This document shows positions 977-28,003 of a stretch of 64,000 nucleotides of DNA, piece after piece. This DNA is from Phormidesmis priestleyi ULC007 (lineage in GTDB: Bacteria; Cyanobacteriota; Cyanobacteriia; Leptolyngbyales; Leptolyngbyaceae), in the NCBI RefSeq assembly GCF_001895925.1, contig NZ_MPPI01000001.1:314099-378098 (forward strand), given 5' to 3'. Position 1 is the stretch's first letter, and each line of letters starts with the position of its first letter. The translations under genes were made by a program, and so were the position numbers. The notes under the pieces were generated by a model. That model saw only the letters and a list, made by a program, of their open reading frames with translations, was not told the DNA's origin and searched no databases.

Positions 977-2319
977 CATGACTGCCGAAGATACCAGGTC
1001 TGTAGAGCAATTCGATGGATTTCTCGCCAAGCGACATTGTGCTGACGGGCAAGCTGGGCACAGTCTTCATATTCTGGCTGCACGTTGACGATCGTGCCGT
1101 CTTTTTGCCGCGCTACTTTGATCTGAACGGTTCCATACTCGGTTTCGACGGGGTGAAATGCCCGATCGAGCCATGATCGCCGCTGAACCGTGTGACGAAT
1201 TCCCAAAGTGCTAGTCTCTCGAAACAAAACTGTTTCACAGGCAAGCTCTTTTTCGGTTGGGCAAATTACCGTCAGCAAGACCCCCGGACGCGATTTCTTC
1301 ATGCCGATCGCTTGAGTAAACACATCCACTGCACCGACCGCAAACAATGCATCAAACACATACCCGATCGCCTGTGGGTTCAGGTCATCAATCTGAGTTT
1401 CGAGAACCGAAATGGTTTCAGAATTGGCAACCAATTGAGGAACGATCGCATCGGACAAAGAATGGGTGTGATGAACCGAATTCTCGTGGATATCTTTCGC
1501 CCCGCCAATCCACAGTCGCAAAATGTTGGGAATTGGCAAATCACGCGATCCGGCACCCAGTCCAATCTTCTGCAACGTCATCGCCGGGGGCGCACCAAAC
1601 TGAGTTGCTAGAGTGGTGACGATCGCTGCCCCGGTCGGGGTGACTAGCTCTCGATCGATGCCATTGCTATAAATGGGTACGTTTCGCAACTCATAGAGCT
1701 TTAGCACGGCTGGCACTGGCACTGGCAACCGACCATGCGCTGCGCGAATCGTTCCCCCTCCCGTCGGCAGTGACGAACAGTAAATGAGATCGAGATCCAG
1801 CCAGTCGAGTCCTAAACAGGTGCCCACTACATCGACGATCGCGTCGATCGCTCCGACTTCGTGAAAATGCACCTGTTCTGCCGGAACTCCATGCACCGCC
1901 CCCTCTGCGTCTGCCAGTTGCCGAAAGATCTTGAGACTCCAGGCTTCAGCCCGTCGAGGCAACTCTGCCCGTTGGATCATCTGCTCAATTTCGGGCAGGT
2001 GCCGCAGTCGCGACCCTGTTTTCTGCTGCTCTTTCGGCTGGTGATGAGCATGATCATGGGCGTGATGATGATGATGTCCTGCATGAGCGTGACCAGTGTG
2101 AGAATGAGCATCCAGCAAGTCAACCCAAACCTTCGTCGCCTGCTGCCCGTTTCGATGAACTAGATCTGCCCGCAAGCGATACTCCTCGGCAATGCCCAAT
2201 CGATCGAGCTTCGCAGTCAGGTAGTCTAAAGGAACGCCTGCACTCACCAGCGCTCCTAAACACATATCCCCTGCAATTCCAGTTGGGCACTCTAGATAAG
2301 CAACTTTTTGCATCGCCAT
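976..2319 (-). CDS. larC: LarC-family nickel pincer cofactor protein (DUF111)
   Basis: LarC is the nickel insertase that completes the nickel-pincer nucleotide cofactor of lactate racemase and related LarA enzymes, acting after LarB and LarE. The 447-residue product shows the family N-terminus (YLECPTGIAGDMCLGAL), the HFHEVGAIDAIVDVVG motif and the C-terminal domain. Residues 72-93 are almost continuous His, a likely nickel-binding segment. Here the protein is one uninterrupted reading frame, unlike Lactobacillus where it is made by frameshifting. No larA, larB or larE lies in the window. A second possible start is two codons downstream. Its 5' end diverges from the Sua5-like gene on the other strand. 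Confidence 0.9.
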   Translation of the reverse strand: MAMQKVAYLECPTGIAGDMCLGALVSAGVPLDYLTAKLDRLGIAEEYRLRADLVHRNGQQATKVWVDLLDAHSHTGHAHAGHHHHHAHDHAHHQPKEQQKTGSRLRHLPEIEQMIQRAELPRRAEAWSLKIFRQLADAEGAVHGVPAEQVHFHEVGAIDAIVDVVGTCLGLDWLDLDLIYCSSLPTGGGTIRAAHGRLPVPVPAVLKLYELRNVPIYSNGIDRELVTPTGAAIVTTLATQFGAPPAMTLQKIGLGAGSRDLPIPNILRLWIGGAKDIHENSVHHTHSLSDAIVPQLVANSETISVLETQIDDLNPQAIGYVFDALFAVGAVDVFTQAIGMKKSRPGVLLTVICPTEKELACETVLFRETSTLGIRHTVQRRSWLDRAFHPVETEYGTVQIKVARQKDGTIVNVQPEYEDCAQLARQHNVAWREIHRIALQTWYLRQS

Positions 2320-2370
2320 AGCAACTCAGATAGTCCCTACACCCTACACCTGATACTTCGTCTTAACTTT

Positions 2371-3048
2371 ATGGCAACCGTTTATAAAATTCATCCTGTC
2401 AATCCGCAGCGTCGAGGCGTTGATCAAGTGGTTAGTGCTCTGCGGAGCGGTGCTGTGATGCTCTACCCGACTGACACAGCTTATGCGATCGGCTGCGACC
2501 TCAACTCTAAATCAGCCGTGCAGCGAGTTCGACAACTCAAGCAAATGTCTAACGATAAGCCGCTCACCTTCTTGTGTCCGTCGCTGTCTAACATTGCTCA
2601 ATATGCAGTCGTGAGTGATCAGGCTTATCGGATTATGAAAGGTCTGGTTCCGGGTTCCTACACGTTTTTGCTGCCAGCAACCAAGCTGGTGCCGAAATTG
2701 GTGATGCACCCCAAACGCAAAACTACAGGCATTCGCGTCCCCGATCATCGCTTGTGTCAAGCTCTGTTAGAGTCACTCGGAAACCCGATCATTTCCACCT
2801 CTGCCCACATTTCCACGAATGATCAACCCGTACCAGCCAAACGCAATTCTGAAAATTTATCGCTAGCGGAACTGTTTGATGCCATGGACGGTCTAGTCGA
2901 TGTAATTGTAGACACTGGAGAAGAACCTTCTGATCAAGTTTCCACCATCTTAGATTTAACGAGCGACGAACCCACTGTAGTTCGGCGAGGGTTGGGATGG
3001 GAAGCGATCGCAGACTTGGCGGTAGTGACCAAAACCTCGGAGGTTTAA
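2371..3048 (+). CDS. Sua5/YciO/YrdC family protein (threonylcarbamoyl-AMP synthase type)
   Basis: Members make threonylcarbamoyl-adenylate from Thr, bicarbonate and ATP for the t6A37 modification of ANN-decoding tRNAs. The 225-residue product contains family signatures: YPTDTAYAIGCD near the N-terminus, the basic KPLTFLC segment, and TTGIRVPDHRLCQALLE plus ISTSAH, which line the nucleotide site. It is the short single-domain YrdC/YciO length, without the C-terminal Sua5 domain. The ATG at 2371 was chosen because the family starts at about this point; an in-frame upstream extension to 2308 would overlap larC. YciO-like paralogues may not do the t6A reaction, so the exact role is uncertain. Confidence 0.85.
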   Translation: MATVYKIHPVNPQRRGVDQVVSALRSGAVMLYPTDTAYAIGCDLNSKSAVQRVRQLKQMSNDKPLTFLCPSLSNIAQYAVVSDQAYRIMKGLVPGSYTFLLPATKLVPKLVMHPKRKTTGIRVPDHRLCQALLESLGNPIISTSAHISTNDQPVPAKRNSENLSLAELFDAMDGLVDVIVDTGEEPSDQVSTILDLTSDEPTVVRRGLGWEAIADLAVVTKTSEV

Positions 3049-3382
3049 GCCACTCTGTCGGTCACAATGCTTGATTCTGGGTTAAAACCACCGAGGTTTG
3101 CGTAAGTCCTATTAAGTTTTTGTCTAGCTGCCACTTTGCCGATCGTCCACGGAAACACAGTAGTATATTGTTTGACAGGTTTGGACGATCGCCTATACGG
3201 AGGCGCTTAGATTGTAGACCCTGCACCGATTTGCGCTGACTCGATTAGACCTCGTGCCAATTAGAGGTTGCGTCGCTTAAAGTGACCAACTGAAGAACTG
3301 ACCTACCGATCGCTAAACTTACCGGAAGACCGGGAAGCATCGTGTAGCCACTGGTGTGCATTACCAAAGTCTGAGTTCCGCT
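3049..3382. other. Intergenic region, no gene seen
   Basis: 334 bases between the Sua5-like and hetZ-like genes. AAACCTCGG at the end of the upstream gene and CCGAGGTTT near 3090-3100 form a long-range inverted repeat that might act in transcript ending, without a T-run. The remainder is probably the hetZ-like promoter and leader; no clear consensus promoter could be picked. Confidence 0.5.
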
Positions 3383-4621
3383 ATGAACACCAAATCCGCA
3401 AAGTCGCTCCCGCATGAAGCAACCTTTCCTGCCGCGATCGAGTCCGATTCTCCATTAGACGCATCAAAGATTGAGTCCAAAGTTGAAGAACTCTCTCCCG
3501 AAACTCAAAAATTAGCCCGTCTTTTAGCCACTGAGCTAGAAGCAGACCTTCAGATCACGGGTCAAGCGATTCAAGCCATCACCGATCGCATCGCGACCGA
3601 AGTTGAGCGCATTTGTCTTAAAAGCGATCGCATTCAGACTTCGGGCGAAATCAGCTCTTGGCGGCTGACGCTGGCGCGTTATCGGCTGCAAAAGTGTGTC
3701 ACTTACTATCGTCTCAATTCGCAGCAAGGTCGCGTCGAGCTACACAGCATTCTCAGCACGATGGTCTATCGCCCGATCGCGCCTGCTCACCTACAACTGA
3801 GCTTTCAAGCCCGCTACAGCCTGATCGAAGACTTTCTGCAAGGCTTTTACACTGAGTCACTCAGAGCCTTCCGACGAGAAAATAAACTAGCAGAAACCTA
3901 TCAGCCCCGCACCCGGCTGCAACTGGCTGAATATATGGCATTTACTGAACAGTATGCCAAGCGAAGAATTACCCTTCCTAGTCAACACAATCAGCAGTTA
4001 GTGATTTTGCGCGCTCAACGGTTTGCGAATCGCCAACCCCACGAAATCGCGGTTGATATTGAAACGGCAATGGAATCGGCAAAAGGAGACGAAGCCGAAG
4101 CTTATGGGCGATCGCCGATTCTAAAAATGATTCGAGAGCAAATGGTCGCTGACAAAGTTGACCCCTCAGAATCGGCGTTGCGCGATCGCGTAGTGGGTGA
4201 GCTAATTCAATATCTCGAATCACAAGGACAGACCGATTGCGTCAATTATTTAACCCTAAAACTTCAAGACCTGTCCGTTCCTGAAATCGACGATATTTTA
4301 TCCATGTCTCCGCGTCAGCGCGATTATCTTCAGCAACGATTTAAATACCATGTTGAAAAGTTTGCCATCTCCCAAAGCTGGAAGCTTGTCCACGAGTGGT
4401 TAGGGGCCGATCTCGACCAAAATCTAGGACTTCCTCCTCAAGAATGGGACGCATTTTTAGCTCAACTTACGCCTGATCAAACCCAGCTTCTCAACCTGAA
4501 GCGAACCGCCACGAGTGACCACGAGATCACTCAAACCCTGAAGTGGACTGCAAAACAACTGCAAAAGCGGTGGGCAGCCCTCCTAGAAACTGCGCGTCAG
4601 GTGCGAAATCAGGCAAAGTAG
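3383..4621 (+). CDS. HetZ-family protein
   Basis: A 412-residue protein that I recognise as HetZ-like over most of its length: RVELHSILSTMVYR, LIEDFLQGFYTESLRAFRREN, LAEYMAFTEQYAKRRI, MSPRQRDYLQQRFKYH and LVHEWLGADLDQNLGL match the pattern of the Anabaena protein. HetZ is a DNA-binding regulator needed early in heterocyst differentiation in Anabaena, and relatives also occur in filamentous species that make no heterocysts. The ATG at 3383 is preferred to an in-frame GTG at 3356. The N-terminal 45 residues are not conserved-looking. The gene stands alone, with no patU or hetR beside it, so a developmental role cannot be assumed. Confidence 0.8.
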   Translation: MNTKSAKSLPHEATFPAAIESDSPLDASKIESKVEELSPETQKLARLLATELEADLQITGQAIQAITDRIATEVERICLKSDRIQTSGEISSWRLTLARYRLQKCVTYYRLNSQQGRVELHSILSTMVYRPIAPAHLQLSFQARYSLIEDFLQGFYTESLRAFRRENKLAETYQPRTRLQLAEYMAFTEQYAKRRITLPSQHNQQLVILRAQRFANRQPHEIAVDIETAMESAKGDEAEAYGRSPILKMIREQMVADKVDPSESALRDRVVGELIQYLESQGQTDCVNYLTLKLQDLSVPEIDDILSMSPRQRDYLQQRFKYHVEKFAISQSWKLVHEWLGADLDQNLGLPPQEWDAFLAQLTPDQTQLLNLKRTATSDHEITQTLKWTAKQLQKRWAALLETARQVRNQAK

Positions 4622-8434: not shown

Positions 8435-9901
<1,467 letters not shown>

Positions 9902-10052
9902 CTAGTGTGTGGTTCAGCTATTACAAACAATTAAAAACTAAAACTTTGCGTGTTATCCGCCATTTCTCAGCTTATCACTGAGGGGTTACAGATGATTAAG
10001 CAGATTTTGGGTTGGAATCGACGCAGACCTTCTCTCTGGCTCCCCTTCAGAT

Positions 10053-19465: not shown

Positions 19466-21799
19466 ATGCAAAACGACCCGCCCATTCTTCAGTGTTCTAA
19501 TTTTTTCTGTCAGGCTCTCAATTCAGAAAGCCATCAGTTTTGTCATAAGTGTCGATCGCCGCTGATTAAACGGTATTTGTGGGCAGTAGGGTCTGGGTTA
19601 GAAATATTTAAGCCTAGGGAGTTGGTGGGCGATCGCTATCTGCTCAAAACGGGTCAAGTTTTACTGGATACCAAACCAGGGTTTCCGCCTGAAAGTCCAG
19701 TCGAAATTCCGGTTAGCTGGGAAGTCTATTTGCGGTTGTCGCCATCTCGACTGCATGTGCCGCAGATTTATGGAATGGTGACAGCACCGCGATCGACCTC
19801 TACGCTGCTTTTGCTAGAAGATGCTGCAATCTATCCAGATGGGGCAAAGCTAAAGTCAGGAAATGAGCTTGCAGGCAGTCTGATGCCAAAATTGACGAGT
19901 CTCTGGACAGAGAGCGACCCGTTACGGCAGCTTAACTGGCTCTGGCAAATCGCCCAGTTGTGGGAGCCGTTTTGCCGAGAGAACGTGGCTTCTACATTGC
20001 TGACCTCGGATTTGCTGCGGGTGGATGCCTCTTTTGTCCGATTGTTAGACTTGCAGCCCGACACTCAAGGAACTCCTGATTTAACCCAGTTGGGACAGTT
20101 TTGGGCACAGTGGCAACAAAACCCTGCTGATCCGATCTCAGACTTTTTGACTCAACTCTGTCAGCAAATGATCCAGGGGCAGATTAGAACTGCTGATCAA
20201 TTATTAGATCGGCTGGATCAGGGAATGACTCATTATGGTCAGGGTCAAACTAGAACGATTCAAATTGCCACCTTTACTGACCAGGGCCCGAGTCGCCAGA
20301 GTAACGAAGACGCATGCTATCCCGCGAGTGGAAGTCATCTTTCCTTCAAGATCGGAGACGCAGCTTCAAACCCTGTAGTGATTGTCTGTGACGGAATTGG
20401 CGGACACGAAGGCGGAGAAGTGGCATCGGGGTTAGCGATCGCCACCCTGCAAACTCAAGCTGAAACGCTACTCTCAGAAACAGACCCCGATGCAGCTACC
20501 CTCGTCAGTGGGCTAGAACAAGCTGCCCTGTCCGCAAACGACGTAATTTCGCAACGTAACGATCAAGAACATCGTCAAGAACGCCAGCGAATGGGAACGA
20601 CCGTCGTCATGGCACTTGCCCACGCCCATGAGCTTTTGATCAATCACGTTGGAGACAGCCGCGCTTATCGAATTACCCGAACTGGCTGCTATCAGGTCAC
20701 TTTAGATGATGATGTCGCGTCGAGAGAAGTCAGGTTAGGGTATGCCCTTTATCGAAATGCTCTGCAACAGCCCTCTTCTGGCGCTCTTGTGCAGGCGTTG
20801 GGCATGAGTAGTTCTAACTTTCTCCATCCGACAGTGCAACGATTTGTTTTGGACGAGGATTGTGTCTTTTTGCTCTGCTCAGATGGGTTAAGTGACCACG
20901 ATCGCGTCGATGAATGCTGGGAAGAGGAAATTGTCCCAATTTTGGATGGCACCACTGCTTTAGCAACCGCAAGCCGTCGATTAGTCGAGATTGCCAACAC
21001 TCGAAACGGGCATGATAACGTCACGGTTGGCTTGGTTTACTGTCAGGTGACGCTGAATCAGACGGCGATCGCGCCGCTTCAGATCGATTGGGATCGCGCT
21101 ACTTCACAAAGTTCTGAACCCTCGTCTTTATCTCCACGATCGCGGTCTGCCGAGTCTTTAGAAGAGTTACCGTCTGAACCCTCTACTTTGAAGACCCAAA
21201 TTATTCAACGACCGCGATCGTCTTTCCGATTTTTGCCCCTATTGGTGATGCTGTTGGCGCTGTTTGGTATCGGGGGTCTGCTAGTTTTGCTGGTGCCCGA
21301 AATTCGGGTGGCGTTAAATCCAGTTAGTCTGCCGCCGACAAGTTCGTTTCCGACCCCGATTCCGACCGTCAGCCTTTCACCCGATCCGCCAACCCCATTC
21401 AATTCAACCAGTTCTGCTCTAGAAGCAAGAATGGTAATTCTGCTTGACCGTCCTACTACTGGCAGCCCTCAACCTCCTGTGTTGTTCTCACTGGTTCGTC
21501 AACCTAACGCTGTGGTGCCGCCTGCGTCAGACCAAACGATCGGCAGCGTGGTGCCAGGGACGATCGCGCGGGTGGTGAACCAGCAGGCGACCGAAGATCG
21601 CATCTCGTGGGTGAGGCTTGAAGTCTGCTCTGTGCCCGGAGGCAGTAAAGTTGCTAATGCGGTGAAGCCCGGAGACTTTGGTTGGCAAGAAGAACGCACG
21701 GTCGGGCCTTTTGTCACCCAAAATCTGAGTCTCAAACCTGCTCAGTTAGGTCGATGTGCTCCTCCCGCTGCGTCAGCCAGTCCTGCACCTACGCCTTGA
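19466..21799 (+). CDS. Membrane PP2C phosphatase with zinc ribbon and degenerate kinase-like region
   Basis: 777 residues in several parts. Residues 10-29 form a zinc ribbon (C-x4-C, then C-x2-C). Residues about 45-260 have a protein-kinase-like pattern without catalytic residues: LLLLEDA like a hinge, then SDLLRVDASFVRLLDLQPD where a kinase has its catalytic and DFG loops. From about 265 comes a PP2C domain with its metal ligands intact: DQGPSRQSNED at 272, DGIGGH at 309, GDSRAY, SDGLSDHD near 473, and GHDNVT. One membrane helix follows at about 590-613, then an extracytoplasmic C-terminus of about 160 residues. It should remove phosphate from Ser/Thr proteins in the cytoplasm. It is followed by an FHA-domain gene, consistent with phospho-signalling. 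Confidence 0.85.
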   Translation: MQNDPPILQCSNFFCQALNSESHQFCHKCRSPLIKRYLWAVGSGLEIFKPRELVGDRYLLKTGQVLLDTKPGFPPESPVEIPVSWEVYLRLSPSRLHVPQIYGMVTAPRSTSTLLLLEDAAIYPDGAKLKSGNELAGSLMPKLTSLWTESDPLRQLNWLWQIAQLWEPFCRENVASTLLTSDLLRVDASFVRLLDLQPDTQGTPDLTQLGQFWAQWQQNPADPISDFLTQLCQQMIQGQIRTADQLLDRLDQGMTHYGQGQTRTIQIATFTDQGPSRQSNEDACYPASGSHLSFKIGDAASNPVVIVCDGIGGHEGGEVASGLAIATLQTQAETLLSETDPDAATLVSGLEQAALSANDVISQRNDQEHRQERQRMGTTVVMALAHAHELLINHVGDSRAYRITRTGCYQVTLDDDVASREVRLGYALYRNALQQPSSGALVQALGMSSSNFLHPTVQRFVLDEDCVFLLCSDGLSDHDRVDECWEEEIVPILDGTTALATASRRLVEIANTRNGHDNVTVGLVYCQVTLNQTAIAPLQIDWDRATSQSSEPSSLSPRSRSAESLEELPSEPSTLKTQIIQRPRSSFRFLPLLVMLLALFGIGGLLVLLVPEIRVALNPVSLPPTSSFPTPIPTVSLSPDPPTPFNSTSSALEARMVILLDRPTTGSPQPPVLFSLVRQPNAVVPPASDQTIGSVVPGTIARVVNQQATEDRISWVRLEVCSVPGGSKVANAVKPGDFGWQEERTVGPFVTQNLSLKPAQLGRCAPPAASASPAPTP

Positions 21800-21936
21800 G
21801 CCACTCGTAGGATTTAAGGCGCAAACTTCGGCGAAGCTCGGTAAACTAATGAAACATTGGGTGTCATGGTTCGCTGTCTTCACGAAACGAGTGATTCAAC
21901 TACCATTTAATAAGTTGGAATGGGTTGTGGTTGTGA

Positions 21937-23634
21937 ATGGCTTTGTCTGAAATTCCTTGTTTAAGTCTGGCGATCGAACGGCTTCGGGCCACTGAGGCCA
22001 GTCACTTTGCGATTCATGTGATCGAGGCTCCCTATAAAGGTGGCTATGTTTTGCGTGACTGCATTTGGTCTGAGTCACTGATGCAAACCTGGCACGCCTG
22101 GAGAGAATTGTTTTCTGCCCGCAGCTTGCCGCCAGTGCCTCACGTTTCTGAAGTTAAGGTGCCATCACTGCCTGCGGCTGAAGCGATCGCTCCTTTGGGG
22201 CAGCCCGTCTCGCGCGGTGTCCGACTGATGCAGACTCTGGGGATTGATCTGTGGGCATGGTTACTGGGAGGGTCGATTCAGAGCAGTTTTGATCAGAGTC
22301 AGGGCATTGCGCTCGGACAAACCAAATCTCTGCGCCTGCGTCTCGATATTCGTGACCCCGATTTGATTGCGATTCCGTGGGAGATTATGCAGAGTCAGGC
22401 AGGTAGGCAAGCCATCTCTCTGAGTCAACAAGTTTTGTTTAGTCGCACCACCAGCGATGTCGATGCCCTGCCGCATCTGAGAACCGATCAGAGTTTGAAT
22501 ATTTTGCTCGTGTTGGGACAGGATGCCGCACCCGCGATTCCGTCTATCTCTGGGGGGCTGGAGGATGCACCTTCCGGGGCATTGCGCGATCGTCAGGCGT
22601 TGCTCAAAAAACTCAAGCTAGAGCAAGAAGCTTCTGCCCTGTCTCAAATCTTGCAAAATCCGGGAAAGTTGGGCGACCCTTCCGATCGCAACGCTTACCA
22701 ATATGCGGCTTCCTGTCAGGTGGATGTTTTACTCCAACCTACTCCGGCGGATCTGATCGAGAAGCTAGAAACCGATCGCTACAACGTCCTATTCTACGCA
22801 GGGCATGGAGAACCTGCGCCCGATGGCGGCTTGCTCTTTCTGCGTCCTGATATGGCAATCAATGGCACAGAGTTGGCGCAAGTGCTGACGCGCTGTCGGG
22901 TGAAGCTGGCGGTGTTTAACTCTTGCTGGGGGGCACAACCTGATGAGCAAAACTATCAGGCGATTCCGCGCAGCAGTTTAGCTGAAGTGCTTTTGCATCA
23001 CGGGGTTCCGGCGGTGTTAGCAATGCGGGAGCCCATTACTGATCAAGAGGCACTCAGTTTTATTCAAGCATTTGCCCAAGCGCTGGCAGATCGGATGCCG
23101 ATCGACCAAGCTGTCGCCGTGGCAAGACAGCATCTCCTGACATTATTTAAGTTTAATCAGCAGGCTTGGACACTGCCCGTTCTTTATATGCACCCAGAAT
23201 TTGACGGCGAGCTACTGAAGCCGTTGGATGAAGGAGCGACTCAGTTTCCGCCCAACCCTAGCCAGTTTGGACAACGATCGGCGATCGCGTCTCTGCGATC
23301 GTTGGTGACAACAAAAGTCTGGACGGTGCGCGGTGGGCTGATGCGCGTCGGGATGAGTGAGGATAATGACCTGGTTTTGCCAGGAGAACCGGGCATTTCT
23401 CGCAAACACGCTGAGATTTTTTATCGCAACGCTTCTCAAGATACGGGGCAACCCACCTACTTTTTACGTGACTTTTCTCGCTATGGCACCTGGGTTTTTA
23501 CGGGTGGCGGGTGGCAAAAAGTTCATCACCAAGAGGTGTTGCTTCAGTCAGGTGTGCAGTTAAAATTTGGGGGATCGCAGAATTCTACGCTAGAATTTTT
23601 GATCACGGCTCCCGTAATGCCTGACTCGGCATAA
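21937..23634 (+). CDS. CHAT-domain (caspase-like) protein with C-terminal FHA domain
   Basis: 565 residues. The N-terminal ~100 residues are unassigned. The middle is a CHAT peptidase domain: IRDPDLIAIPWEIM near 135, catalytic His290 in YAGHGE and Cys330 in FNSCWGAQ, and the closing AVLAMREPITDQEALSF segment, so the dyad of clan CD proteases is present. Residues about 460-555 form a forkhead-associated domain with RVGMSEDNDLVL and SRKHAEI at 488, which reads phospho-threonine. No signal peptide is seen, so it is probably cytoplasmic. The PP2C phosphatase gene lies 137 bases upstream on the same strand. A phosphorylation-controlled protease is inferred; the substrate is unknown. Confidence 0.85.
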   Translation: MALSEIPCLSLAIERLRATEASHFAIHVIEAPYKGGYVLRDCIWSESLMQTWHAWRELFSARSLPPVPHVSEVKVPSLPAAEAIAPLGQPVSRGVRLMQTLGIDLWAWLLGGSIQSSFDQSQGIALGQTKSLRLRLDIRDPDLIAIPWEIMQSQAGRQAISLSQQVLFSRTTSDVDALPHLRTDQSLNILLVLGQDAAPAIPSISGGLEDAPSGALRDRQALLKKLKLEQEASALSQILQNPGKLGDPSDRNAYQYAASCQVDVLLQPTPADLIEKLETDRYNVLFYAGHGEPAPDGGLLFLRPDMAINGTELAQVLTRCRVKLAVFNSCWGAQPDEQNYQAIPRSSLAEVLLHHGVPAVLAMREPITDQEALSFIQAFAQALADRMPIDQAVAVARQHLLTLFKFNQQAWTLPVLYMHPEFDGELLKPLDEGATQFPPNPSQFGQRSAIASLRSLVTTKVWTVRGGLMRVGMSEDNDLVLPGEPGISRKHAEIFYRNASQDTGQPTYFLRDFSRYGTWVFTGGGWQKVHHQEVLLQSGVQLKFGGSQNSTLEFLITAPVMPDSA

Positions 23635-23749
23635 ACGCAGCCAAATCAATCACCCGATCGGGCTAATTTATTCATCGTTACGGAATTGGTAACGGGCAAC
23701 TTGTAGATATCACCAACAGCAGTGACTCAGTGGATGCGGGTATTACAGT

Positions 23750-24403
23750 ATGGCAAGTGAAGTAAATCGTTCTCGTTCGATCGTAGGTCTTCAAACCGAG
23801 CAAGACTTGGCAAATGCACTTCTTCAAACCGAAGATGTGACCCTACGGTGGAATCCGAACGAATCCATCGATACGGCTGAGATTGAGGTGGCAGAAACCC
23901 CCACCAGCAAAATATCCTATCCCTGGAATCCGAGCGATCCGAGCGCAGAGTCATTTCTTTCAGAACTCGAACGAGAATTTTCCTTAGATGACTGGGATGA
24001 CGGTGAGATTGCTCAACGATCGCAGTCGTTCTTCAGCCATCTAGATGCCCGGTGGTCAGCAACAGACTTAAAGACTACCCTGGCTCAAAAATTTGTATCG
24101 GTGCCTCAGGCTCTATTGGCAGCAATTGCGCGGCAAGCTCAAAAAGTCGTTGAGACTTCTAATTCCCTCGCTGATCAGTTGATTGAGTGTGTTCAAGACG
24201 TTCTTCCTACCTGGGCAGAAGACGATCTGCAAGTGTTGGCGCGTCCTTTAGCCTATGCGATGCGAAGCGATGGGGCAGATGTGGTCGATGCGACGGTCAA
24301 CAGTGTTCGGGCGATCGCCTGGAGTGATCTGTCCGAAACCGAACAAGCACGAATGAGTTTGGCGATCGCGCGGTATGCAATCGATCAGTTAGGCGAGCGC
24401 TAA
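23750..24403 (+). CDS. Conserved protein of unknown function in phosphatase/CHAT/NACHT cluster
   Basis: 217 residues, soluble, acidic N-terminal half with a repeated YPWNPSDPS / RWNPNES pattern and SFLSELEREFSLDDWDDGE, followed by a helical C-terminal half (FVSVPQALLAAIARQAQKVVETSNSLADQLIECVQDVLP, DVVDATVNSVRAIAWSDLSE). Not recognised as any named family. The gene starts 115 bases after the CHAT-FHA gene and lies on the same strand, so joint expression is plausible. A scaffold or substrate of its neighbours would be a guess. Confidence 0.65.
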   Translation: MASEVNRSRSIVGLQTEQDLANALLQTEDVTLRWNPNESIDTAEIEVAETPTSKISYPWNPSDPSAESFLSELEREFSLDDWDDGEIAQRSQSFFSHLDARWSATDLKTTLAQKFVSVPQALLAAIARQAQKVVETSNSLADQLIECVQDVLPTWAEDDLQVLARPLAYAMRSDGADVVDATVNSVRAIAWSDLSETEQARMSLAIARYAIDQLGER

Positions 24404-24643: not shown

Positions 24644-27600
24644 ATGGCAACGCGCAACCGATCTTCGTTTTTTCTAGCGCTTCAGTTGAGTCTTCTGTGC
24701 TTTTCAGGGGTCGCAACCCCTCAAAAGGCGCGGGGGCAAAGCACCGCTGGACTCGCGGCTCAAATTCACAAACTCGCTAACAGCCCATCGTCTGACTCGG
24801 CGATCGCTACCCTCAAAAAGCAAGGCGCACCCGCGATCAAGACACTGATCTACGTCGTCAAAGACCGCAAAGAGCCGCCAAAAGTGCGATTGTTTGCGAT
24901 CAGCGCGATCGGAGAAATGGGAACCGATGCAAAAGCGGCGGTTCCTGACCTGCGAAATGCCCTCAAAGATTCAGATGAGCAAGTGCGTCAGGCGGCGGCA
25001 AAAGCGCTGGGAAGCATCGGGGTCAATGCCAAAGCAGCCGTTCCCGATCTGATCAATGCCTTAAACGATCCTAGTAAATTGGTGCGAGTGCAAACCATCA
25101 ATGCGCTTCCCAATTTAGGATCAGATGCAAAAACGGCGATCCCAGAACTGATTCCCGCTCTGTCAGATCCGTCTCAATTGGTGCGGCTCACTGCGATCGA
25201 AGCCCTGGCTCGATTTGGTCAAGACGCTAAACCTGTGGTGCAGCCCCTGGCTCAACTGCTGTCAGATCCCGATCGCCAAATTCGCGTAGCCACTGCAAGC
25301 ACCCTGAGTAGAATCGGAGCCGATGCCAGTGCAGCCGTTCCAGAATTGACCAAGGCACTTGCCAACAGCGATCGCACCACACGCTTTTTGGCAGCAATGG
25401 CACTGGGTCAAATTGGCACCAACGCTAAATCGGCGGTTCCAGAATTGACGAAAGCACTGTCCGATCCCGAAAAAGATGTGCGATCGAAAGCCGCTTCTTC
25501 CCTGGGCAGAATTGAAGCTCAATCAGCCCTTTCAGAACTGGTTAAGACGCTCAAAGACGAAAATTTTGACGTGCGGTTAAGTTCAGCCAGCGCGATCGAT
25601 CACATCTCAGGTAGTTTGCAAGACACAGCATCGTCTCTAACCACTAGCGAATTGGTATCGGCTTATGCCGCTCTAGAATCTGCCCAGCCGATCTTAGAAC
25701 AATCCAAAAATGTTGACGTTTTAGCGTCGGTGCGACGATCGCTGAGTGTGCTCAAAACCCAAAAAGATTCACGGCTGTTTGAGCGCTTTTTTGAGTGGAG
25801 TCGCTCAAATCCGGCGATCGCAGGCGTGTTGCTCTACCTAGGGGCGATGCCGTCTCTCTGGGGTCTGCTGCTGCTGATTCGCCCTCTGTGGTTACTGAAA
25901 CTCAACCATCTGCTCAAGCCCTATACCGATTTTGAGGTTCCCAGTCCTTTAGGCGGCAGCATCAAAGTGCCTCTACGATCCGTGTTGTTTTTGGCGATGT
26001 TTCACTACCATCCTCGCGTACTCGATGCGTGGGTCGCAGAACAGATTGAAGTCGCCCGTGAAGCTTTTATTCGTAAAAATACGGTGAGCGATTGTAAAGT
26101 TTATATTCCCATTCCCGTAGTACTCGATGGCAACACGATCGCAGAATTAGCGAGCCAAGATTTGCACTCAACCTTTTGGGATGGACGGCAATGTCTACTG
26201 ATCTGGGGCGAAGGTGGCATCGGCAAAACCAGCTTGGCATGTAACCTAGCAAAATGGGCAATGGCAGACGATCGCGCCTCGCGTCTGTGTCGGCATCAGA
26301 TGTTGCCTGTCTTGATCGAGCAAGAACTCGACTTTAAACTGCCCGCCGATAAACAACCGTTTCGCGAAGCGATTCGGGGGCAGTTGCAAGCGCTGATTGA
26401 TGCTGCCGAACCGATTTCAGATGAGTTCTTAGAAAAATTGCTGAGACAGCGACGAATTTTAGTGATCGTCGATCGGCTTTCTGAACTCAGCGAAGCCACT
26501 CGCGAACAAATTCGTCCCGGACATCCTGACTTCCCGGCAAACGCGCTGATCGTCACGTCGCGAGTTGAAGAAACCCTAGACGAAGTGCCTAAAACGACGG
26601 TCAAACCGTTGCGGATTGAGGGCAATCGCCTTTCATCGTTCTTAGAGGCCTATCTGACTCAACGCAGCAAGCGCGAACTCTTCACCGACTCCGAATATTT
26701 TGATGCCTGTAGTCAACTTTCCAAACTGGTTGGTCAGCGTAATATTACCGTTCTGCTGGCAAAACTTTACGCCGAGCAGATGATCGCCAAAGAAGAAGGA
26801 ATTAGCGAAGATAACCTGCCTGACAACATTCCAGACCTGATGCTGAGTTATCTCAACGAACTCAATCGCGATGCCGCAGAAGACGAGCCTGACAATTCCA
26901 CCATTCACAAAGATGCTCAAATCATCGCCTGGGAGTGTTTGAGGCAGTCTTACCATCCCGCCCCGGCTAAACGAGAGGCAATTCTGGCAGAAATGGCAGC
27001 GCGATCGGGCGCAGAAAGTGAAGTTGTGAAAGCGCGGCTCAAACATTTAGAAAAGCGGCTGCGAATTGTGCAAGCGATCGGGCCTGCCCAAGATCAAATC
27101 TGCTTTGCCCTCGATCCGTTAGCCGAATGTTTGGCAGCGCTCTATCTGGTGGAGCTGTATCGCGATCAGAAAAAACTCTGGGAAGAGTGGCTGATTCAAG
27201 CCGATGCAATGCCCGGTGCCCCTGAGAGCATTCAAGGCTTTTTGCTGGCAATGAGAGACTGTTGCCTCACCCGCAGCGCCGAGATTAATGTGCCCGACAT
27301 GGTTTTAGAAGAATTGGGCAAACGAGTCGGCTTGAGTGCAGAGACTCTCCGACGCACCCAGGTGGAACAGCGAATTCGTCGCCTTGCTCCTAGTTTGGCA
27401 AACGGTGATTTGCAAGTGCGGCTAGACGCTATCTGTGAGCTTGGAGAACTTGGCTCGGCTGCTAAAGCGGTTCTTCCGGCGCTGATTCGAGAGTTTCAAG
27501 CCCGTGATTGGCAGATTCGTCGCGAAGTTGCTAGAGCGATCGGACAGATTGGACCCGAAGCCCGCACCGCAATTCCGGCGCTAGTAGAGCGTCTAGGAGA

Positions 27601-28003
27601 TGACGATCGCCGCGTCAGTGGAGAAGCGATCGCGAGTTTGGGCAAATTAGGAGTCGGGGCAGTTCCGGCTTTAATTGCAGCGCTAGAAGCCAAACCTGCT
27701 CACGTTCGCAGCACGGCGGCTTGGGTGCTTTCTAGCTTCAATCATTTTGCGCGATCGGCAGTTCCCGCTTTGACACACGCTCTCAAAGATGAAGATTGGC
27801 AAGTGAGATGGGTGGCTGCCTACGCCTTGGGCTGCATTGGGCCCGATGCCAAGTCTGCGATTCCCGCCCTGATCGAAGCCTTTAAAGGAGAATATGAACT
27901 GGTGAGCAAAGAAGCCAGTCGCACCCTGTGGCGGATTAGTGGGGAAGCTGAAACGATCGTGGCGGCTCTGGGCGAAATGAGCAATGGACGAGAAGACAAT
28001 TAG
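24644..28003 (+). CDS. HEAT-repeat membrane protein with NACHT-type NTPase domain
   Basis: 1119 residues. An N-terminal signal or anchor (FFLALQLSLLCFSG) leads into about nine HEAT repeats (residues 40-340) of the form DAKAAVPDLRNALKDSDEQVRQAAAKALG. A hydrophobic segment at about 388-415 (AIAGVLLYLGAMPSLWGLLLL) is probably membrane-spanning. Then comes a NACHT-like NTPase with Walker A WGEGGIGKTSL near 520 and a Walker B-like LVIVDRLSEL near 602. From about 915 a second HEAT array closes the protein. If the signal and helix are used as read, the first array is extracytoplasmic and the NTPase plus second array are cytoplasmic. STAND-type NTPases act as molecular switches in immunity and signalling; the ligand here is unknown. 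Confidence 0.85.
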   Translation: MATRNRSSFFLALQLSLLCFSGVATPQKARGQSTAGLAAQIHKLANSPSSDSAIATLKKQGAPAIKTLIYVVKDRKEPPKVRLFAISAIGEMGTDAKAAVPDLRNALKDSDEQVRQAAAKALGSIGVNAKAAVPDLINALNDPSKLVRVQTINALPNLGSDAKTAIPELIPALSDPSQLVRLTAIEALARFGQDAKPVVQPLAQLLSDPDRQIRVATASTLSRIGADASAAVPELTKALANSDRTTRFLAAMALGQIGTNAKSAVPELTKALSDPEKDVRSKAASSLGRIEAQSALSELVKTLKDENFDVRLSSASAIDHISGSLQDTASSLTTSELVSAYAALESAQPILEQSKNVDVLASVRRSLSVLKTQKDSRLFERFFEWSRSNPAIAGVLLYLGAMPSLWGLLLLIRPLWLLKLNHLLKPYTDFEVPSPLGGSIKVPLRSVLFLAMFHYHPRVLDAWVAEQIEVAREAFIRKNTVSDCKVYIPIPVVLDGNTIAELASQDLHSTFWDGRQCLLIWGEGGIGKTSLACNLAKWAMADDRASRLCRHQMLPVLIEQELDFKLPADKQPFREAIRGQLQALIDAAEPISDEFLEKLLRQRRILVIVDRLSELSEATREQIRPGHPDFPANALIVTSRVEETLDEVPKTTVKPLRIEGNRLSSFLEAYLTQRSKRELFTDSEYFDACSQLSKLVGQRNITVLLAKLYAEQMIAKEEGISEDNLPDNIPDLMLSYLNELNRDAAEDEPDNSTIHKDAQIIAWECLRQSYHPAPAKREAILAEMAARSGAESEVVKARLKHLEKRLRIVQAIGPAQDQICFALDPLAECLAALYLVELYRDQKKLWEEWLIQADAMPGAPESIQGFLLAMRDCCLTRSAEINVPDMVLEELGKRVGLSAETLRRTQVEQRIRRLAPSLANGDLQVRLDAICELGELGSAAKAVLPALIREFQARDWQIRREVARAIGQIGPEARTAIPALVERLGDDDRRVSGEAIASLGKLGVGAVPALIAALEAKPAHVRSTAAWVLSSFNHFARSAVPALTHALKDEDWQVRWVAAYALGCIGPDAKSAIPALIEAFKGEYELVSKEASRTLWRISGEAETIVAALGEMSNGREDN

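Follow-up and report, generated by a model that had tools for sequence, protein, structure and literature searches.

A cyanobacterial NACHT protein predicted to carry HEAT arrays on both sides of the membrane, and its family

The NLRs and bacterial STAND defence proteins characterised so far have been interpreted as cytosolic sensors, and the gene described here raises the question of whether a NACHT switch can also serve as an envelope receptor. It lies at 24644..28003 on the forward strand (+) of the window, the 64,000-nt stretch of the Phormidesmis priestleyi ULC007 contig NZ_MPPI01000001.1 that was analysed and to whose positions all coordinates refer; all features given below are on the same strand. 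The reading frame of 1119 aa is open throughout and begins with an ATG that is common to its relatives, as is a beginning of the form 'MA..R...hydrophobic', and full-length orthologues in the window's clade are 56-87% identical across the entire protein. From its N-terminus the chain reads as a signal peptide (SP), a HEAT ectodomain, a transmembrane helix (TM), a NACHT domain, the helical domain NCH4 and a second HEAT block.

HEAT repeats are detected over the whole protein (Pfam HEAT_2, 7.7e-69) in two blocks, one per end, as the original prediction had it. The N-terminal array, predicted to be extracytoplasmic (residues 34-376, 24743..25771, +), yields HEAT_2 at 1.1e-46 for the segment alone and consists of about 8 repeats with a period of 33 aa, with 0 cysteines in 358 aa, while the C-terminal, predicted cytoplasmic array (residues 906-1111, 27359..27976, +) has about 6 repeats of the same period. 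The signal-like N-terminus that had been proposed is likewise a feature of the family. The signal peptide region comprises residues 1-33 (24644..24742, +) with a hydrophobic core at about 9-23, as delimited from the sequences of close relatives and the AlphaFold model; in the close relatives this core is preceded by K/R and by no D/E, and almost every complete relative retains such a core behind a basic n-region poor in acidic residues, in spite of sequence divergence.

The hydrophobic segment originally placed near 390-415 was found at residues 390-412 (25811..25879, +), where it contains no charged residue and exceeds every other 19-mer of the protein in insertability. Segments of HEAT repeats are hydrophobic too, so the hydropathy of one protein is insufficient for a transmembrane call: the candidate helix reaches a KD value of 1.95 and the HEAT segment 996-1014 one of 1.79. 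An entirely cytoplasmic protein, in which the segment is a buried helix, the N-terminus is no working signal and both arrays reside in the cytoplasm, could draw on exactly this property of HEAT helices, and it is the evidence at family level that settles the topology. When 19-mers were scored for insertion on the biological hydrophobicity scale, this segment ranked first among all those not in the signal peptide, and it did so in 33 of 33 relatives whose core is recognisable. It is uncharged across the family, and in the family average this position combines zero charged or strongly polar residues with the best summed insertion score.

Cysteine is avoided on the outer side only. The ectodomains of the 13 closest members contain none at all, and for 18 members the count is 3 in 5,942 aa of ectodomain versus 207 in 13,130 aa for the remainder. 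In a wider set, cyanobacterial ectodomains hold 23 cysteines in 16,928 aa and the family's C-terminal HEAT arrays 55 in 7,980 aa, a comparison that matters because both sides are HEAT arrays (Fisher p 4e-12, a value that overstates the difference since the sequences are related). Where the ectodomain does hold cysteines, in the members with an FGE-sulfatase tail and in L098, these include a conserved pair about 28 residues apart, as would be expected for an oxidising compartment. Furthermore, relatives such as L092 and L038 have a short stalk in place of the outer array and have nevertheless retained the signal peptide and the TM, a combination that speaks against a wholly cytoplasmic chain.

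For the full-length chain, AlphaFold (mean pLDDT 85, pTM 0.51) predicts a helix at 6-21, a disordered linker of low confidence at 22-33, the HEAT solenoid at 34-376 and a low-confidence, flexible hinge at 378-383, followed by the separate helix 390-412, whose boundaries thus come from both the model and the insertion ranking. A low pTM with a high pLDDT fits two rigid halves that would have no fixed mutual arrangement. After the TM, close members have 1-3 K/R and few acidic residues, a weak signal of orientation. The claim that the two arrays lie on opposite sides of the membrane is thus strongly supported by family sequences and models, with one array on the outer side, NACHT and the other array in the cytoplasm and a single predicted crossing at 390-412; computationally, the chain up to residue about 389 is shown as exported. 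The compartment outside may be the periplasm or the thylakoid lumen, and in the modelled arrangement the outer arm would be outside even if the signal peptide remained uncleaved. As far as prediction and cysteine distribution go, the layout is that of a type I single-pass protein, with SP, extracytoplasmic domain, one TM and cytoplasmic domain. The buried-helix alternative is largely refuted by the same family-level tests on sequences and models, and we regard an all-cytoplasmic protein as very improbable.

Behind the membrane, a conserved cytoplasmic juxtamembrane linker (residues 413-510, 25880..26173, +) contains YHPRVLDAWV and TVSDCKVYIPIPVVL, and in the relatives' alignments its columns 455-464 and 480-481 are nearly invariant. 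It leads into the nucleotide-binding domain (residues 511-660, 26174..26623, +), which was assigned from Pfam, fold match and conservation. Pfam NACHT (PF05729) scores 21.6 bits on the window protein, under its gathering score of 26.7, and NACHT, AAA_16 and AAA_22 all appear as sub-threshold matches at 513-626; the NACHT profile is matched by 17 of 18 scanned family cores at E < 0.01. NCH4 (PF22731; residues 856-898, 27209-27337, +) scores 75.6 bits, far above its cut-off of 27, and matches all 18 scanned cores. As a Foldseek search with the whole protein is swamped by HEAT solenoids, the core was modelled apart (54-member AlphaFold model, pLDDT 87.6, pTM 0.84), and its best PDB matches were NLRP3, NAIP5, NLRC4 and NOD2 over about 480-510 columns, the better ones with a TM-score of about 0.5 normalised by query and about 14% identity. 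A PDB sequence search with the window protein found no informative relatives. The length of the fold match indicates that a whole NACHT module is present and more than a P-loop, with NLR-like helical and winged-helix domains after the nucleotide-binding domain (residues 661-905, 26624..27358, +). On the NCH4 score and the fold match of the model, the NACHT assignment of the original prediction is judged right despite the sub-threshold Pfam score.

The nucleotide site itself is kept with characteristic departures. Walker A (GEGGIGKT, 522-529, 26207..26230, +) is intact as GEGG.GKT in the 54 relatives, invariant save for one position, and in the sensor-1 segment ALIVTSR (634-640, 26543..26563, +) the S and R of TSR, at 638-640, are invariant in the same set. 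NACHT-clade Walker B motifs usually have the form hhhhD[GAS]hDE. The window protein has LVIVDRLSE (606-614, 26459..26485, +), and the remark that VDRLSE is uncommon proved to hold for the whole family, where the motif is D-[RH]-x-S-E with G at the second position in 3 members and with D610, S613 and E614 invariant in 54 relatives: the first D and the last E of the usual form are kept, and its second acidic residue is always Ser. D-x-x-S-E is, by this alignment, a family signature and not a defect of this gene. We therefore describe the window protein as NACHT-like, its Walker B being divergent and its clade backed by the modelled fold, and the departure from the usual pattern makes predicted hydrolysis uncertain. 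In STAND/NACHT proteins a winged-helix His contacts ADP in the resting state, with the signature FxHxxxxE; a similar segment here is F-x-L-D-P-L-A-E, with Asp at what would be the place of His in 51 of 54 members and His in 1, a putative equivalence that was judged by eye. The NACHT domain is the best-conserved part of the protein, 97% identical to that of a congener with a dN/dS of 0.02.

The homologue search returned 80 loci in named genomes, nearly all from filamentous cyanobacteria, the genera including Nostoc, Fischerella, Planktothrix, Trichodesmium, Okeania, Microcoleus, Scytonema, Calothrix and Oscillatoria; to our knowledge every cyanobacterial genus named among the family loci is filamentous. 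Single loci also occur in Planctomycetota, Calditrichia, Chromatiaceae and one unassigned bacterium. The distribution is patchy: at E < 1e-30 the core occurs in 15 of the 386 genomes sampled from the phylum, with a single copy in the window's genome. Going by this protein (93% core identity) and the genes around it, the closest named relative is Phormidesmis priestleyi BC1401 (Leptolyngbyaceae). NCH4 was found in 25 of 115 relatives, and the places listed are mostly family loci or fragments of these, so that the domain marks the family in this genome group.

Throughout the family, a fixed chassis of SP-TM-NACHT-NCH4 carries variable modules in four arrangements. Many members have only the outer HEAT array and no module C-terminal to NACHT-NCH4; others combine a short outer stalk with an inner HEAT array, or an outer array containing the cysteine pair with an inner FGE-sulfatase domain; and the window's clade has HEAT both outside and inside. 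HEAT was recognised in 51 of the 53 long ectodomains that were scanned and HEAT_2 in each of 30 scanned C-terminal parts, FGE-sulfatase being present as well in 4 of these, and the segment after NCH4 aligns between HEAT-tailed and FGE-tailed types. The nine double-array members including the window protein formed one branch of a quick tree of 54 cores (SH-aLRT 100), on which the C-terminal type needs 5 changes. In the course of its evolution this conserved family has swapped arms on the outer as well as the inner side.

The two arrays of the window's clade change at different rates. Identity to a congener is 76% for the outer array, with a dN/dS of 0.16 and one repeat gained or lost, and 92% for the inner one, with a dN/dS of 0.05; helix-2 surface positions hardly change in the inner array and vary in the outer. 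Because of its slow change and nearly fixed helix-2 surface, the inner array looks like a conserved docking surface, and the outer array may either track changing ligands or be under less constraint. Within the protein, repeat identities of 0.41 (N-N), 0.35 (C-C) and 0.36 (N-C) are not separable, while across orthologues the best match falls within the same array for 181 of 183 repeats, which rules out recent duplication or copying between the two arrays.

The genomic surroundings are of local character. Upstream genes for a PP2C protein, a CHAT-FHA protein and a 217-aa protein, together with uvrA downstream, are syntenic in the same genus only, and an operon with the three upstream genes was rejected as a general feature for this reason; in a P. 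priestleyi relative an amidohydrolase gene separates these three from the NACHT gene. When the neighbours from 20 whole-genome and 80 contig loci were clustered all against all, no conserved partner gene emerged beyond this local synteny. At one locus, L095, a TPR-CHAT protein is encoded directly upstream, and among the other loci only L075 has a distant (28%) CHAT relative. Neighbours elsewhere differ and, inspected by eye, resemble housekeeping genes (uvrA and genes for biotin and glycine cleavage), and no defence island was seen at the loci inspected by eye. Among the Pfam and PADLOC hits of the protein there was no fused or N-terminal effector domain, and assignment to a known defence family was rejected since the PADLOC hits of the full protein were HEAT-type models and the window's core had none. 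We infer that a downstream effector would be encoded elsewhere.

What, then, would such a protein do? Our preferred reading, to which we give a little better than even chances, is a membrane-embedded, NLR-like STAND switch with outside-in or two-sided sensing. At rest the NACHT module would hold ADP; the extracytoplasmic HEAT array would be triggered by binding a ligand or partner, possibly along with a partner on the cytoplasmic array; ADP would then be exchanged for ATP, and the ATP-bound protein would oligomerise within the membrane plane and recruit a cytoplasmic effector encoded elsewhere. The simplest guess for the window's clade is that the outer array, which changes fast, serves as the input and that the slow inner one offers a docking site to a conserved partner or to the NACHT module itself. 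The outside-in direction is argued from the members with an outer module only, in which the outer HEAT array is the sole candidate input for lack of any module C-terminal to NACHT-NCH4, and from the slow change of the inner array. A loosely constrained spacer could likewise change as fast as the outer array does, and the dN/dS of this array is well below 1; against the switch, neither a ligand nor a fused effector nor a conserved neighbour gene was identified in the Pfam, PADLOC and neighbour-clustering analyses. As a more specific and tentative version, which we hold possible with clearly less confidence, the NACHT switch would sit in a type I receptor chassis with exchangeable inputs on either side, and the window's clade, which has both, might be a coincidence detector for envelope and cytoplasmic signals in filamentous bacteria.

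The receptor layout of the original prediction thus fits the anatomy, and its direction from outside to inside is a conjecture, as some relatives have a sizeable module only outside and others only inside. Signalling in the reverse sense would have the cytoplasmic array respond to an intracellular trigger, with the SP/TM part as the effector and a NACHT ring that clusters TMs and outer arms to alter or breach the membrane. Such a scheme follows the classical tripartite order of N-terminal effector, central STAND and C-terminal sensor (PMC10907252), and the relatives with a short outer stalk and inner HEAT fit a cytoplasmic sensor of this kind, against the outside-in direction; the members with a C-terminal FGE-sulfatase, a fold used elsewhere as a variable sensor, and the alignable segment after NCH4 in HEAT- and FGE-tailed types point the same way. 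It sits poorly with the many members that keep a large outer HEAT array and nothing C-terminal to NACHT-NCH4, with the inner array being the slow-changing one in the window's clade, and with neighbours that are housekeeping-like rather than defence-like, and one TM preceded by a signal peptide and a folded arm of 350 residues would make an unusual pore former; we consider it rather unlikely. The protein might otherwise anchor a NACHT complex of the cytoplasm at the envelope, filament septa being one example, its outer array binding a structural partner without any ligand-triggered signal. A solo gene without conserved partners would suit such a tether, as would the general role of HEAT arrays as binding scaffolds and the Foldseek similarity of the HEAT solenoid to artificial alphaRep binders; however, a passive tether would need neither the best-conserved NACHT domain nor its kept nucleotide-site residues, and this makes it improbable.

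If the topology of the family is true, bacteria also use the NACHT switch as an envelope receptor, and the family would be a concrete model for the coupling of ligand binding, membrane position and NACHT oligomerisation. It might constitute a bacterial NLR-like receptor family sensing across the membrane, in filamentous bacteria and with inputs exchangeable on both sides; its patchy spread and module exchange, almost entirely among filamentous cyanobacteria, open cell-cell or envelope sensing in multicellular bacteria to testing.

NACHT proteins, NCH helical domains and the NCH4 Pfam entry are already known, and bacterial STAND-related systems with membrane segments have previously been noted (PMC7159879, PMC10907252). 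No family of NACHT proteins whose HEAT arm is exported was found described in the open-licence literature searched, to which the main bNACHT paper does not belong, and priority is therefore not claimed. With the NCH4-type NACHT proteins (PF22731, 'NACHT C-terminal Helical domain 4') the window protein shares NCH4, an entry that covers a 45-residue helical piece only and not the signal peptide, TM or outer HEAT array; the literature searched yielded no account of their membrane topology. DGR-diversified STAND/NACHT putative antigen sensors of multicellular bacteria, such as Thiohalocapsa DGR 3, combine NACHT with a variable C-terminal lectin-type fold, and some are predicted to have membrane segments (PMC10907252). 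Compared by description, several relatives in our family resemble them through a C-terminal FGE-sulfatase, whereas the window protein ends in HEAT repeats. Those NLR-related bNACHT proteins and Avs STAND proteins of bacteria that have been described are tripartite, with an N-terminal effector and a C-terminal sensor (PMC12169576, PMC10907252). Like the window protein, they join a NACHT module to a C-terminal helical (NCH) domain, and the C-terminal repeats of the window's clade are a further resemblance; unlike them, the window protein has an exported HEAT arm and a TM at the N-terminal position, without a recognised effector domain, and no PADLOC model matches its core. The fold of the NACHT module is common to the window protein and the animal NLRs NLRP3, NLRC4, NOD2 and NAIP5, but these are cytosolic, and the window's family is set apart by its Walker B D-x-x-S-E and its winged-helix LDPLAE.

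Upstream of the membrane NACHT gene, and on the same strand, genes for a PP2C phosphatase, a CHAT-FHA protein and a 217-aa protein follow one another consecutively (window 19466-24403). The CHAT domain of the second is HetF-like and has both the GHG and the NSC motif, and no family was assigned to the 217-aa protein. This gene row is shared with P. priestleyi only, and in strain BC1401 (locus L021) an amidohydrolase gene that is missing from the window lies between the 217-aa and NACHT genes (8644-9990). In an uncultured Chromatiaceae (L095), a TPR-CHAT (caspase-like) protein is encoded at 1940-4417 on the same strand as the membrane NACHT gene; 53 bases separate the end of the TPR-CHAT gene from the NACHT start, and the TPR-CHAT protein is a possible effector partner there. 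Six loci of the inner-HEAT type (L099, L104, L107, L112, L113 and L116) have in common a large neighbouring gene on the opposite strand, whose product of roughly 1000-1770 aa may resemble alpha-2-macroglobulin.

Inter-phylum transfer is suggested by a Planctomycetota MAG in which a protein with a 51% identical core and an ectodomain of 700 residues is encoded amid apparent biotin-synthesis genes (L065, 2969-6682). In copies L026/L042, L034 and L036, a frameshift or an in-frame stop breaks the gene within its outer or juxtamembrane part, through either sequencing errors or decay. One of the assemblies concerned is a draft metagenome, and the other two have long contigs.

Four relatives (L093, L096, L100 and L102) end C-terminally in an FGE-sulfatase domain. 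Around L096 and L100, inspection by eye picked out no reverse transcriptase; the neighbours there resemble glycine-cleavage genes. In other STAND proteins, the FGE-sulfatase fold is diversified by retroelements (PMC10907252).
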